Below, one piece after another: positions 1,558-6,967 of a stretch of 64,000 nt of DNA (its first letter is position 1; every line of letters begins with the position of its first letter). A program made the position numbers and the translations under genes. The notes under the pieces were generated by a model. That model saw only the letters and a program-made list of their open reading frames with translations. It was not told where the DNA came from and made no database searches. This stretch comes from Thermodesulfovibrio sp. (GTDB taxonomy: Bacteria > Nitrospirota > Thermodesulfovibrionia > Thermodesulfovibrionales > Thermodesulfovibrionaceae): assembly GCA_020725335.1 (NCBI GenBank), contig DYFF01000018.1, positions 1 through 64,000 on the forward strand, given 5' to 3'.

Positions 1558-2514
1558 ATGTTAGGTAAAATCTATATTTTAGTCATCACTGCAATATTTT
1601 TGCCATTTACTGTTTTTGCTCAAACATACACTGTTAAAAATGGTGATAATTTATGGGAAATTTCAAAAAAATTCAATGTTTCAATTGATGACATAAAAAA
1701 GGTGAATAACTTAAAGAATAAAAAAATAAAAGTTGGTATGAAATTAGAAATACCTGACAGTCCCTCAAAAAAATTAAACAATAAAAATCAAGCAAAAAAT
1801 CAGGCTATGACTACTAAATATCACACAGTAAAAAAAGGTGAAAATCTCTTTAGAATAGCTAATAAATATAAAATTTCAGTTGATGAGCTAAAAAGATTAA
1901 ATAATATGAATAACAATACCTTAACCATTGGACAGAAATTAATTGTTAAAAAAGCTGAAAAACCTATAGAAAACATATCTATTAGAGCCGATGAAAGAGT
2001 GCCTCTTATAACCTCAGCAAGCATAGACAAAGAAATAAAAGCAGAAGAAATTGAGGAATTGAAGGCTAATGAAGATTTGTCTAAATTAAACATTACTGAA
2101 AGAATTCTTTTGTTTGCAAAAAAAATGCTTCATCTGCCTTACAGATTTGGAGGCAATGGGTTTAGTGGACTTGACTGTTCATTTTTTGTAAAGAAAGTAT
2201 ATTCTATGGTCGGAATTGATTTACCAAGAAGCGCAAGAGAACAGTTTACCCAAGGAATCAATATTGACAAGGAAGAACTAAAACCAGGAGACCTTGTATT
2301 CTTCAGAACCTATGCTAAATTCCCTTCCCACGTGGGAATATATTTGGGGGATAATCTTTTTATACATGCTTCCTCAAAATCAAAAAAAGTTACTATAGAC
2401 AGCTTGGAAGCACCTTATTATCTAAAAAGATTCATTGGTGCTAAGAGAATTCTTGATATTGACAGGGACATATTAGAAAAAGCTATAGAAGAAGCTAAAA
2501 AACAAGACAGCTAA
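1558..2514 (+). CDS. LysM-LysM-NlpC/P60 cell-wall endopeptidase
   Basis: Secreted peptidoglycan hydrolase, probably cutting stem peptides during growth or division. A signal peptide ends near FAQ (residue 22). Two LysM glycan-binding repeats follow (about 23-67 and 88-133, both with the TVKxGxNL start), then a Lys/Glu-rich linker and an NlpC/P60 domain (about 180-300). The catalytic Cys is in GLDCSFF (Cys207) and the His in SHVGIYLG (His258). Start chosen at the ATG with strong SD, right after scpB. The stop overlaps the convergent moeA stop by 4 nt (ctaa), leaving no terminator space. Specific substrate bond not determinable. Confidence 0.92.
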   Translation: MLGKIYILVITAIFLPFTVFAQTYTVKNGDNLWEISKKFNVSIDDIKKVNNLKNKKIKVGMKLEIPDSPSKKLNNKNQAKNQAMTTKYHTVKKGENLFRIANKYKISVDELKRLNNMNNNTLTIGQKLIVKKAEKPIENISIRADERVPLITSASIDKEIKAEEIEELKANEDLSKLNITERILLFAKKMLHLPYRFGGNGFSGLDCSFFVKKVYSMVGIDLPRSAREQFTQGINIDKEELKPGDLVFFRTYAKFPSHVGIYLGDNLFIHASSKSKKVTIDSLEAPYYLKRFIGAKRILDIDRDILEKAIEEAKKQDS

Positions 2515-4451
2515 TTAGTTTTCCTATAAATTACTTTACCCATATCGCGAATATCATAGCCACCAAGTCTAATAACTGCCTGTCTGAATTCTTCGTCATC
2601 TTTTATAACGGAAAGTAATGCTTGAATTATAGGAAGTTCAATGAATTCTTCGGGTATTAGTATATCGTATCTTTCTTCGGCTACAGGAATAAAATCAAGC
2701 CCTAAAGCTTGAGCAGACGAGAGAATTCCGAGACCTACATCAGCCCTTCCACTTAGCACTGCTGATGCTACACCCATATGAGTATATTCATCTTTATCAT
2801 ATCCTTTAATTGACGATGGAGAGATCCCAAATTCTTTCAGATGTTTGTCAAGTAAAAGTCTTGTACCAGAACCTGCCTGTCTATTTATAAAAATTACATC
2901 TTCTCTTACAAGGTCTTCAAAGTCTTTTATATTTTTAGGATTACCTTTTCTAACTATGAATCCCTGTATCCGATAAACAAGATTTATGAGCACAAGCTTT
3001 TTGTCAGGCATAAGTCGCTCAATGAAAGGAACATTGTATTGTCCTGTAACTTCATCAAGCAAGTGAGTACCTGCCATATGGGCTTCACCTTTTTTTATAG
3101 CCACAAGACCTCCCATTGAACCTACATGAGCTGATGAAAGAGTAACGTTGGGATATCTCTTTCTTAAAAAGTTATAAAGTACATCAAGAGTATTATCATG
3201 ACTTCCTATGCATACAACAGTATTATCAATTTCTTCTTTTGAACGCCATAGATGGACAGTCAATTCTGTTCCCTGTGAAAAACCCTCAGATCCCTTTGGA
3301 ATAACTATATATCCATCAGCTCTAACTACAGACATTAAAAGTCCTGCTCCACGACCCATTGGAGTTACAATATACTTTTCGCCTACCCTACCCACTTTTA
3401 CCCTTACAAATTCATCAACTCCCATACTTGAAGCAATTTGTCTTGAAAGTATTGCTTTAATTTTGTTTTCCTTTGTTATTGAAATCCCAAGATAAAATTC
3501 TATTAAAGGTTTTATAAATAGTTCATAACATAGAAAGGCTGAAACAGGATATCCTGGAATACCTAAAACAGGTTTATTATAAATAAACCCAGCAATAAAG
3601 GGCTTGCCAGGTTTTATAGAAACTCCATTTACTATGACTTCTCCCAGCTCACTTAAAACTTTGTAAGTAAAATCCTCTTTACCATATCCAGAACCAGCAT
3701 TTAGCAAGACTATATCACAATCTTCGAGAGCTTTCAATATAGCCTCTTTAATACTCTTTTCCTCATCTTTAGCTATAGAGTAAACTCTTGGCTGTGCACC
3801 AGCTTTGAAAACTAATCCACTTAATACAGCTGAATTGTATTCAATAAGTTCAGGTGGTTCAGGCATTTTTTTATTAATTTCTTCAGCTTCAACAAGCTCT
3901 GAGCCTGTTGGAATAATGCCCACGATAGGTTTTCTACGAACTCTTATTTCTGTAACTCCACTTGCAAGCATAGCTCCGATATCAGCAGGACGAACTATAT
4001 GGCTTTCAGGAATAATAAGCTCTGTTGCGACTATATCTTCTCCAATAGGTCTTACATCATTGTAAGGAGGCACAGAGGAGTAAATTTCAATAAAGCTATC
4101 TTTAATATTCACCTCTTCAATTGGAATGACCGCATCAAAACCATCTGGCAGGGGATCTCCAGTTTCAATCCAGTGAGCATCTTTGCCAATTTTCAGTCTT
4201 ACAGGTTCTCTTTCAGTAGCAGAAAAAGTATCTTTTGCTCGCACTGCATAGCCATCCATAGCAGATGAATGAAAATAGGGAGAGGAAAATTTTGCAAAAA
4301 CTGCCTCTGAGGTTACCCTATCTAAAGCATTTTTTACTGAAATTTGCTCGCTTTCAATAGGGATAGATACTTTTTCTTTAAACTTATTAAATAACCTCTC
4401 CTTTGCTTCAAAAAGGGAGAGTAGTTCGTGAAATACCTTTTTACCAGCCAT
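2511..4451 (-). CDS. moeA: MoeA molybdopterin molybdenumtransferase fused to a PBP-like domain
   Basis: MoeA inserts molybdate (or tungstate) into adenylylated molybdopterin, giving the active cofactor for formate dehydrogenase and related enzymes. Residues 1 to about 400 are MoeA: SSAMDGYAV, GDPLPDGFDAVIPIE and the PGxP-type GIPGYPVSAFLCYE region are visible. From about 410 to the end is a periplasmic-binding/LysR-substrate-like domain (RQAGSGTRLLLD, HMGVASAVLSGRADVG), a fusion known in anaerobes and archaea and thought to bind an oxyanion or regulate activity. The ATG shares its A with the fdhE stop (taATG), so the two are translationally coupled. Overlaps the convergent endopeptidase gene by 4 nt. 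Confidence 0.93.
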   Translation of the reverse strand: MAGKKVFHELLSLFEAKERLFNKFKEKVSIPIESEQISVKNALDRVTSEAVFAKFSSPYFHSSAMDGYAVRAKDTFSATEREPVRLKIGKDAHWIETGDPLPDGFDAVIPIEEVNIKDSFIEIYSSVPPYNDVRPIGEDIVATELIIPESHIVRPADIGAMLASGVTEIRVRRKPIVGIIPTGSELVEAEEINKKMPEPPELIEYNSAVLSGLVFKAGAQPRVYSIAKDEEKSIKEAILKALEDCDIVLLNAGSGYGKEDFTYKVLSELGEVIVNGVSIKPGKPFIAGFIYNKPVLGIPGYPVSAFLCYELFIKPLIEFYLGISITKENKIKAILSRQIASSMGVDEFVRVKVGRVGEKYIVTPMGRGAGLLMSVVRADGYIVIPKGSEGFSQGTELTVHLWRSKEEIDNTVVCIGSHDNTLDVLYNFLRKRYPNVTLSSAHVGSMGGLVAIKKGEAHMAGTHLLDEVTGQYNVPFIERLMPDKKLVLINLVYRIQGFIVRKGNPKNIKDFEDLVREDVIFINRQAGSGTRLLLDKHLKEFGISPSSIKGYDKDEYTHMGVASAVLSGRADVGLGILSSAQALGLDFIPVAEERYDILIPEEFIELPIIQALLSVIKDDEEFRQAVIRLGGYDIRDMGKVIYRKTN

Positions 4452-5188
4452 TACTCGATAATTTTTAATCCAATAATATTTGGAGAGCGTCTTATATAGC
4501 CTCTCCTCTGAGCAATAATATCAAGAGGTAGACTAATAAGGTCAATTAAAAATGGATCTTTATATTTAATATAGTGATTTTCCTTAAAAGTTTTAATATA
4601 GGTATTACATTCGAGGCAATAATCTGCTCTTATTTCTTCTTCATCGAGTATTATCTCCATTTTGCCTGAATCCTTATTAAAACAATAAGGACAACATATG
4701 CGATAAAAACTTCCCTCATGTTCGCAAAGTGGACAAATCATTATTTTTTCGTTATTTTCATTTATCATTGCAAGAGAAGAATCTGTTCCGCATATTGGGC
4801 ATTTACCTGTATCCATAAAGGATGCCTGTTGTCCGTCTTTTCTTAAAAAAACAAAAAAAGGTTTAGTAATTATAAAAAGCATTCTATCAACTTCTTCCTT
4901 TGAAAGTTCTTCACTTTGTATAGGAAGATTCCTTATAATTGACGGTTCTCTCATGGGATCTTTGCCATATTTTAGAATCTCATCTTTTAAAAAGGCTATA
5001 GATTCATAAGGAATATTAAAAACACCGGAAAAGCCTTTTAATACAATATCAATTATATCTGTTGTATTTTCAAGCTTTATTCGTTCCTTTTCGCTTTTAC
5101 AGTAATCTATAAACTTTCTTATCTTGTCATAAAGTTCAAGAGGGCTCTGCAGATAGGGCTTTTCCTTTATTAATTCTTCAAGCTTCAT
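4451..5188 (-). CDS. fdhE: Formate dehydrogenase accessory protein FdhE
   Basis: FdhE is a rubredoxin-like zinc/iron protein needed to mature formate dehydrogenases. The 245-residue protein has the expected four Cys pairs: CPICG, CPLC, CCPYC and CLEC, in the central to C-terminal part, plus the FdhE-type GKCPICGTDSSLAM region. Start ATG at 5188 follows ggagg at good spacing. It sits 15 nt after the diheme peroxidase gene and is coupled to moeA. FdhE beside a molybdenum cofactor gene makes sense because formate dehydrogenase is a molybdenum or tungsten enzyme, often with selenocysteine. No formate dehydrogenase subunit is in this window. Confidence 0.92.
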   Translation of the reverse strand: MKLEELIKEKPYLQSPLELYDKIRKFIDYCKSEKERIKLENTTDIIDIVLKGFSGVFNIPYESIAFLKDEILKYGKDPMREPSIIRNLPIQSEELSKEEVDRMLFIITKPFFVFLRKDGQQASFMDTGKCPICGTDSSLAMINENNEKIMICPLCEHEGSFYRICCPYCFNKDSGKMEIILDEEEIRADYCLECNTYIKTFKENHYIKYKDPFLIDLISLPLDIIAQRRGYIRRSPNIIGLKIIE

Positions 5189-5203: not shown

Positions 5204-6289
5204 TTATTGAATATCAGGCAATCTAATTTTTAAATCCTCTCCGCTAAGGGCTTCCGTCAAAAAGGTTTTTAATACTTTTCTTTCATATTCAGTTAAATTA
5301 AGAGGCTTTAATGCTTTATTCCCTTGTCCTCCACCTTTATTGAAAAAGTCTATAACTTCATCAAGATTTTTAAATATTCCATTATGCATATAGGGTGCGG
5401 TTTTTGCAATTTCTCTTAGAGTTGGTGTTTTAAAAGCTTTATAATCTTGTTTTTTCTTTGTTTTGAAGTATCTTCCCAGGTCTTCTTTGATATTCATATA
5501 ATCGTGATAATTGTTTATCTTAGCTATATATCTTCTTGTAACTATGAACTTATCCTCATTTGCATATTTTGGATTCTCCGGAACCATCAATGCATGAAAT
5601 TTTTGGTCACTCAAATAGGCACCATAGTGGCACTCAATGCATCTGCCTTTTCCAACAAAAATCTCTAATCCCTTCTTTGCTTCATCTGATAAGGCACTTT
5701 TGTCCCCTTTTAAAAATTTATCTATCGGTGCATTTTTTGATATAAGAGTTCTCTGGAATGCAGCTAAGGCTTTAGCAATCAATTTGATATTCACATCCTT
5801 TCCAAATATTGTTTTGAATGCTTCTCTGTATTCAGGTACTATTCTAATTTCTTCCTCAACAAAATCAAGATTTTGATTCATCTCAAAGGGTGACATTATG
5901 GGAAATTCAGCCTGGTGTTCAAGAGTTTTTGCCCTTCCATCCCAGAAAAGATTTTTTGCATAGGCTATATTTATTAAAGTAGGAGCATTTCTGAAATTTC
6001 TTGTTGTTGGATAGCTCAGTGATATTTCAGAGGAATCTGTAAAAGCTTTTTCAGGGTCATGACAACTTGCACAACTTGTTGTTCCATCACCAGAAAGTCG
6101 TCTGTCGAAAAAAAGTTTTTTCCCAAGTTCAATCTTTTCCATACTCATAGGATTATCTTTTGGTACAGGAGGAGTTGGCAAAGATTCAATTTTTTTCTTT
6201 TTTTCTGCTGCAAAGGTGTTCGTATTTAGAAAAATAAAAGATATAAATATTGATAACAAAAAAAATAAAAAACTATTTCTTTTTAGCAT
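5204..6289 (-). CDS. Diheme cytochrome c peroxidase (CcpA/MauG family)
   Basis: Periplasmic diheme peroxidase that reduces hydrogen peroxide using electrons from small c-type cytochromes. A signal peptide ends near TFAA (about residue 28). Heme sites are CASCH (Cys73, Cys76, His77) and CIECH (Cys217, Cys220, His221), the spacing expected for the two-domain family. Length (361 aa) is normal. I chose the ATG at 6289, 7 nt after AAGGAG; a TTG at 6295 is in frame but badly placed. The gene overlaps the end of the upstream DsbA-like selenoprotein gene, so the two are probably co-translated. A MauG-like protein-modifying role is possible but less likely. Confidence 0.9.
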   Translation of the reverse strand: MLKRNSFLFFLLSIFISFIFLNTNTFAAEKKKKIESLPTPPVPKDNPMSMEKIELGKKLFFDRRLSGDGTTSCASCHDPEKAFTDSSEISLSYPTTRNFRNAPTLINIAYAKNLFWDGRAKTLEHQAEFPIMSPFEMNQNLDFVEEEIRIVPEYREAFKTIFGKDVNIKLIAKALAAFQRTLISKNAPIDKFLKGDKSALSDEAKKGLEIFVGKGRCIECHYGAYLSDQKFHALMVPENPKYANEDKFIVTRRYIAKINNYHDYMNIKEDLGRYFKTKKKQDYKAFKTPTLREIAKTAPYMHNGIFKNLDEVIDFFNKGGGQGNKALKPLNLTEYERKVLKTFLTEALSGEDLKIRLPDIQ

Positions 6290-6869
6290 TTTCAAGCTCC
6301 TTAAAAATAATATTCTTGAAATAATCTGAATCTCTTACCCCAAGAACCTTAATACCATTAATATAGAATGCAGGGGTGACATAAAGATCCAGTTCTTTAG
6401 CGAGCTTTAAATCCCTATCAATAATTGCAGCTCCTTCTTGATTGTCTATTGCCTTTGTGAACTTTTCTACATCGAGATTTAATTCCTTTGCATAAGATAT
6501 TAGAGAATCCCTGTCAAGCTTTGGAGACCTTTTAATCAGTAACTCATGCATTTCTGCAAACTTACCCTGTCGCCAGGATTCAATTGCTGCTTCAGCAGCA
6601 ATTCTTGAGTAATCTCTGTAACGATAAGGAAAAAACTTTATCACAAGCTTGACCTTTCCTGCTAATTCTTTCACCAATCCATCAATGGTCGGACCGACCT
6701 CAACGCAATGAGGTCACTGATAGTCTATAAATTCAATTATTTTAACTGGCGCATTATCTGAACCTATAAAGGGGGAATTTTCTGTGGGTAAATTATACCG
6801 AGTTTCAGAGGCTTGCGCATAAGTGAAAATAAAAAGGGAAATAAATAGGAAAAACATTTTTTTAATCAT
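6273..6869 (-). CDS. DsbA-like thioredoxin-fold selenoprotein (Sec-Pro-His-Cys active site)
   Basis: Exported thiol-disulfide oxidoreductase of the DsbA/Thioredoxin_4 type, read through an in-frame TGA at 6716-6714 (codon 52). Codons before and after it stay in one frame: a signal peptide (ends near AQA, residue 20), then APVKIIEFIDYQ, the TGA, then PHCVEVGPTI. The family has CPHC here, so TGA replaces exactly the first active-site Cys, as in known selenocysteine proteins. A hairpin just after it fits a SECIS (see separate entry). The C-terminal half is intact, with a cis-Pro VTPAFYING loop. Start ATG at 6869 has AAGGAG 8 nt before it. 198 residues. Without TGA readthrough only a 51-residue signal fragment would form. 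A nonsense-mutated pseudogene is the alternative. Confidence 0.87.
6687..6699 (-). promoter_or_regulatory. Candidate bacterial SECIS hairpin for selenocysteine insertion
   Basis: On the minus strand, counting from the base after the TGA (6716-6714), nucleotides 15-19 (GGTCG) pair perfectly with 23-27 (CGACC), leaving the loop GTC at 20-22. The apex reads GGUC at 19-22. From memory, the E. coli fdhF SECIS has the same GGUC at about the same distance from its UGA, and G and U there contact SelB. The helix is short (5 bp), and lower-stem pairing was not resolved by hand. Confidence 0.65.
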
Positions 6870-6893: not shown

Positions 6894-6967
6894 TGCCCCC
6901 TGCAGGAATCGAACCTGCGACACCAGGTTTAGGAAACCTGTGCTCTATCCTACTGAGCTAAGGGGGC
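6894..6967 (-). tRNA. tRNA-Arg (anticodon CCT)
   Basis: A full cloverleaf folds on the minus strand: acceptor GCCCCCT/AGGGGGC, D-stem GCTC/GAGC, anticodon stem CAGGT/ACCTG around loop TTCCTAA (anticodon CCT, reads AGG), T-stem GCAGG/CCTGC with loop TTCGATT, discriminator A at 6894. CCA is not encoded. The selenoprotein gene begins 24 nt downstream on the same strand with only its ribosome site between. Confidence 0.96.

Follow-up and report, generated by a model that had tools for sequence, protein, structure and literature searches.

A DsbA-like selenoprotein gene in Thermodesulfovibrio and its association with cytochrome c peroxidase and formate dehydrogenase genes

A single reading frame with one in-frame TGA

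The analysed window, the first 64,000 nucleotides of a Thermodesulfovibrio sp. contig, contains on its reverse strand a gene that we here call dsbU, together with the following neighbouring genes and internal features:

2511..4451, minus strand: fusion of MoeA with a periplasmic-binding-like domain (molybdopterin metabolism), the next gene downstream of FdhE
4451..5188, minus strand: FdhE-type formate dehydrogenase accessory protein, the next gene downstream of the peroxidase
5204..6289, minus strand: di-haem cytochrome c peroxidase, CCP (PF03150), sharing 17 nt at its 5' end with the 3' end of dsbU
6273..6869, minus strand: dsbU, DsbA-like selenoprotein gene (198 aa; signal peptide, DsbA/BdbD fold, U52-P-H-C55)
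6683..6703, minus strand: bacterial SECIS-like hairpin inside the coding sequence (arms 6703-6696 and 6690-6683, loop GGUCC 6695-6691), with frozen synonymous codons and covariation
6714..6716, minus strand: predicted Sec codon, an in-frame TGA at the first active-site position
6894..6967, minus strand: tRNA-Arg(CCT), directly upstream of dsbU and marking its 5' boundary; conserved in several congeners

A transposase-like fragment lies at the contig start (177-550).

The dsbU frame runs from the ATG at 6869 to a TAG at 6275-6273 and is interrupted once, by the TGA at 6716-6714 (U52), in the context DYQ-U-PHC; the flanking residues of the product read IIEFIDYQ-U-PHCVEVGPTIDGLVK. A preliminary description of this DNA had reported the same frame with the same sole TGA, and re-reading gave an identical result. 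It had also pointed to a good ribosome site, a signal peptide and a cis-Pro loop, all of which we recovered: AAGGAG lies closely 5' of the ATG, the N-terminus is a signal peptide-like stretch, and the cis-Pro (T165-P166) is invariant, as is C55, among 29 homologues. Its warning about gene calling was likewise borne out, since mechanical ORF calling yields only a 134-aa ORF from a TTG (6677..6273) that lacks the active site; automatic annotation would begin dsbU at an internal start, and the active site would be lost.

The product has the hallmarks of the DsbA/BdbD family, namely a thioredoxin fold with a helical insertion, a UxxC motif, a cis-Pro and a secretion signal. An AF2 model built with the 29 homologues reached a mean pLDDT of 94, and its best PDB match in Foldseek was BdbD of Bacillus subtilis (3eu3, TM 0.79), followed by Silicibacter 3gyk and by ScsC. 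These proteins share its fold and CPxC/cis-Pro layout but have Cys where the dsbU product would have Sec. Pfam assigned PF13462 (Thioredoxin_4, 85 bits) and PF01323 (DSBA, 53.9 bits), both above cut-off. The closest curated selenoprotein model is NF041057 (Rcas_1661 family thioredoxin-like (seleno)lipoprotein; DsbG-like UxxC in PMC13188914), of which the product is not a member, its 68.8 bits falling far under the 190-bit cut-off. Within our overall interpretation, which we hold with somewhat more belief than doubt, dsbU would encode, in sulfate-reducing bacteria, a secreted DsbA/BdbD-type thiol-disulfide oxidoreductase with Sec as its nucleophile (UPHC).

Conservation of the TGA, the downstream hairpin and the Sec machinery

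The TGA occupies exactly this codon in all 52 distinct sequences of the UPHC subfamily, which belong to Nitrospirota and share ~50-80% protein identity, and none has reverted to Cys. The close dsbU homologues among 61 related genomes each carry one TGA. A tree built from 84 relatives places the 52 distinct sequences in a UPHC clade (SH-aLRT 99%) with no Cys member, while the wider family shows four Sec/Cys changes; beyond the clade, Sec forms (UPYC, UPFC) and Cys forms (CPYC/CPFC) align at the same codon. As is characteristic of bacterial selenoproteins, an in-frame UGA thus stands at a redox site where relatives have Cys. The preliminary description had called both sides of the TGA well conserved, and pN/pS of 0.12-0.19 on each side indicates purifying selection. 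Since the same codon is TGA in every subfamily member examined and both flanks are under such constraint, its conservation lies far beyond chance.

These data bear directly on whether the TGA could be a nonsense mutation, in a pseudogene or through sequencing error, a reading for which nothing speaks except the in-frame stop itself. According to the preliminary description, an alignment of homologues at this site would expose a pseudogene through different stops or scattered mutations in related strains. The alignment instead returned TGA at the same codon in every UPHC member, and no other in-frame stop was found among the dsbU relatives, TAG or TAA in three loci being normal gene ends. With purifying selection on both flanks and Sec machinery in the genome (see below), such a mutation or error is practically out of the question, and the pseudogene reading was rejected as refuted by the shared TGA and the selection on its flanks.

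Several related loci are recorded here for completeness. One genome carries two tandem dsbU copies, UPHC and UTHC, each with a TGA and a hairpin (L094, G229:C1:22900-27300). Further Sec DsbA-like paralogues of Nitrospirota (UPYC, UPFC; L105, L110, L111, L112-L117, L058) differ in the sequence after the UGA, and no CCP was seen in the stretches read around them. In another locus (L059 / L157, G057:C21), a formate dehydrogenase-adjacent dsbU is frameshifted near a contig end, which could mean that the copy is decaying or that the assembly is wrong there.

For the SECIS element we applied the criterion of a hairpin with a G-containing apical loop ~16-37 nt after the UGA. The GGUCC loop starts 19 nt after the UGA, in agreement with the GGUC apex previously placed at 19-22 nt, when counted from the A of UGA. 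Codons +5 to +9 after the TGA read GAG GTC GGT CCG ACC in the window, and their third positions are nearly fixed across the order (GGT 27/27, CCG 28/28, ACC 25/25), whereas elsewhere the fourfold codons (Pro, Gly, Ala, Thr, Val) use all four bases; pS is about halved over the 20 codons 3' of the TGA. In the hairpin arms, 82% of cells are paired; shuffles give 75%, and slid controls do not exceed 54%. Double changes occur in 6 of 8 pairs, a level reached by none of 500 shuffles, and one pair has switched from UA to CG in 12 sequences. RNAalifold recovers the same hairpin core. GTC is present at the loop position in 54/65 Sec rows and in 0/20 Cys rows; the hairpin is absent from these 20 Cys relatives, and the remaining 11 Sec rows, UPYC/UPFC paralogues, have a different downstream sequence.

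When the window sequence was folded singly, the hairpin was not the minimum-free-energy fold; the comparative test was therefore used instead, and it is this test that supports the hairpin. An Rfam search of the window matched the hairpin to no family, SECIS families included, and Rfam was therefore not used as evidence. The GGUCC loop, sought in the formate dehydrogenase hairpin of the same genome, is not shared. As judged from the aligned sequences, the downstream hairpin is under RNA-level selection.

The genome search for selA, selB, selC and selD that the preliminary description had proposed, with absence of selB or selC as the sign of a pseudogene, recovered all four: tRNA-Sec (selC, 73.1 bits, also called by ARAGORN), SelB (383 bits), SelA (619 bits) and SelD (372 bits), the last with its own active-site TGA at MLTEKVKAAG-U-ASK. 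The formate dehydrogenase alpha subunit of this genome also has one TGA. The conserved codon, the RNA-level selection and the complete machinery all support the original reading of dsbU as a DsbA-like selenoprotein gene. On this comparative basis Sec is almost certainly inserted at the UGA, which would be decoded by SelB and tRNA-Sec under the guidance of the hairpin inside the coding sequence.

Association with cytochrome c peroxidase and formate dehydrogenase

While sound as to the selenoprotein, the preliminary description was incomplete, having missed both the CCP neighbour and a link to formate dehydrogenase (FDH). Of the 61 related genomes, 28 have intact dsbU, and the orthologous CCP occurs in precisely these 28 (28/28 co-occurrence). 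Where a locus extends far enough, CCP almost always follows dsbU directly, the exception being the tandem dsbU locus, where no CCP was found within 1.5 kb downstream. Close solved structural relatives of the CCP exist. Within the genus Thermodesulfovibrio, the FdhE and MoeA genes follow the pair. In Thermodesulfovibrio sp. N1 (L022 / L036 / L135), dsbU and CCP are joined in one uninterrupted frame of ~559 aa, which reflects either a genuine gene fusion or a mistake in the sequence.

In relatives, dsbU and CCP are embedded in an operon-like group of genes for a periplasmic Sec FDH. A Sec FDH-alpha gene adjoins dsbU in 15 of 15 order-level genomes scored, and FDH iron-sulfur and NrfD or cytochrome b subunits are also present in the clusters, where read. 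Of 39 further dsbU-positive genomes, 28 have FDH and dsbU on one contig, mostly no more than ~3 kb apart, and 11 have them on separate contigs. In Thermodesulfovibrio itself, FDH is not adjacent to dsbU, which weighs against our overall interpretation. The dsbU-linked FDHs carry twin-arginine leaders and would therefore share a compartment with the dsbU product. Taken together, these associations make it probable that the product serves the periplasmic Sec FDH module. One Thermodesulfovibrio FDH alpha (L169, G008:C40) has no TGA, being a Cys form, and keeps both of the cysteines discussed in the next section.

Two chief rivals arise from this gene context. The first is that dsbU encodes a general periplasmic thiol oxidase in the role of DsbA/BdbD, recycled by a VKOR-like membrane protein, and that its proximity to FDH is incidental. 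Its fold and sequence are indeed nearest to BdbD and DsbA, and the genome has a gene for a VKOR-like protein at another location, which in some congeners lies within ~10 kb of dsbU. However, this candidate resembles VKOR only weakly (19.7 bits, where the Pfam cut-off is 27.5), VKOR exceeds the cut-off in only 5 of 61 genomes, and DsbB is missing from 60 of 61. Moreover, roughly half of the related genomes do not have dsbU, and one would not expect a general oxidase to accompany a single peroxidase gene in all 28 instances out of 28. We consider this explanation unlikely. DsbB was rejected as a redox partner, being absent; the VKOR-like membrane protein (L135:6667-7428; G000:C21:39980-40705), distant and scoring under the cut-off but conserved within the genus, is a possible oxidant.

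The second rival casts the product as a dedicated maturation factor for the adjacent CCP, keeping its haem-binding CXXC thiols redox-correct for haem attachment. The adjacency, the overlapping or nearly overlapping frames, the invariable co-occurrence and the in-frame fusion of strain N1 would all suit such a role, as would the CCP itself, whose only cysteines are the four haem-binding residues of its two CXXCH sites. This proposal leaves unexplained both the FDH cluster and the specific loss of an FDH cysteine where dsbU is missing (see below), and other c-type cytochromes need no partner of this kind to mature; we judge it slightly less plausible still than a general oxidase.

Sec chemistry next to a CCP could also suggest that the product is mainly a selenol-based peroxide scavenger which, with CCP, protects FDH. 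A DsbA-fold protein that carries UPHC and whose resolving Cys and cis-Pro loop are invariant has the signature of a disulfide exchanger and not of Prx/GPx, which renders this role very improbable.

The formate dehydrogenase cysteine pair and a proposed role for dsbU

In Desulfovibrio vulgaris FdhAB, an allosteric disulfide, C845-C872, holds the oxygen-protected state, and its reduction activates the enzyme (PMC13397495, PMC11323313); neither paper identifies a periplasmic protein responsible for opening or closing the switch in vivo. We compared the Cys columns of FDHs between dsbU-positive and dsbU-negative genomes, with no prior choice of column. The two columns that best separated the groups align exactly, as counted on the alignment, to D. 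vulgaris C845 and C872. When the set was enlarged, both cysteines were present in the FDHs of 62/62 dsbU-positive genomes, including the genome studied here, compared with 5/16 dsbU-negative genomes (Fisher test, p = 6e-10, ancestry ignored). When ancestry was considered, the tree offered only three independent pairs with good support. Each agreed with the association or was neutral, and none opposed it, but this number is too small for significance.

As a control for divergence, we took the 85 columns that are at least 97% conserved in dsbU-positive FDHs and checked them in dsbU-negative FDHs of the same clade. C872 was kept in 38% of the latter, the lowest value of the 85, the next being 77%. 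Six dsbU-negative genomes have kept C845 and lost C872 alone, the pattern expected after recent relaxation. Against a link with the switch stand the five dsbU-negative genomes that keep both cysteines, as well as D. vulgaris FdhA, which has the pair and is not known to have a dsbU-like neighbour gene.

From the gene association and the Cys-pair association together, we infer that the dsbU product may act on the C845-C872-type switch, in either the oxidising or the reducing direction; our belief in this step falls a little short of even. The whole reading, which we somewhat favour, is that a Sec-containing DsbA/BdbD oxidoreductase works together with the CCP encoded beside it, serves the periplasmic Sec FDH and, as its likeliest task, makes or breaks the surface disulfide corresponding to C845-C872 of D. 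vulgaris FdhA. The dsbU product would exchange disulfides with FDH, CCP would remove peroxide or drain electrons, and the disulfide would switch the enzyme between its active form and a resting state that is protected against oxygen. More speculative is the idea that the Sec DsbA and the di-haem peroxidase form a dedicated physiological control unit of this disulfide. Peroxide or oxygen would then oxidise the selenoprotein and so close the FDH switch, reduction would reopen it, and an FDH whose genome has lost the unit would go on to lose the second switch Cys.

DsbA-like UxxC selenoproteins have been known since 2005, when they were found in the Sargasso Sea (PMC1088965), and appear in later catalogues (PMC1794560, PMC2398784, PMC5029168 and PMC13188914, the last as 'DsbA-like protein form 1', PF01323). 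As described in the portions of these sources available to us, they resemble dsbU in having Sec for the first Cys of CxxC in a DsbA fold and a SECIS directly after the UGA; those same portions of all five are silent on operon context, on a Nitrospirota lineage and on function, whereas dsbU represents a monophyletic subfamily with CCP and FDH as partners. Among the papers searched, all accessible without subscription, none brings together DsbA, selenocysteine, formate dehydrogenase and cytochrome c peroxidase; the only one that mentions DsbA along with selenoprotein and cytochrome c peroxidase is, to judge from title and abstract, a general review. The kind of selenoprotein is therefore already known, and the new part is the gene company of dsbU, namely CCP and FDH. 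For 20 years, catalogues have listed DsbA-like selenoproteins with no function assigned, and the context of the dsbU lineage points to a concrete client. It also makes dsbU a candidate operator for the disulfide that governs how well a leading CO2-reducing formate dehydrogenase tolerates oxygen.
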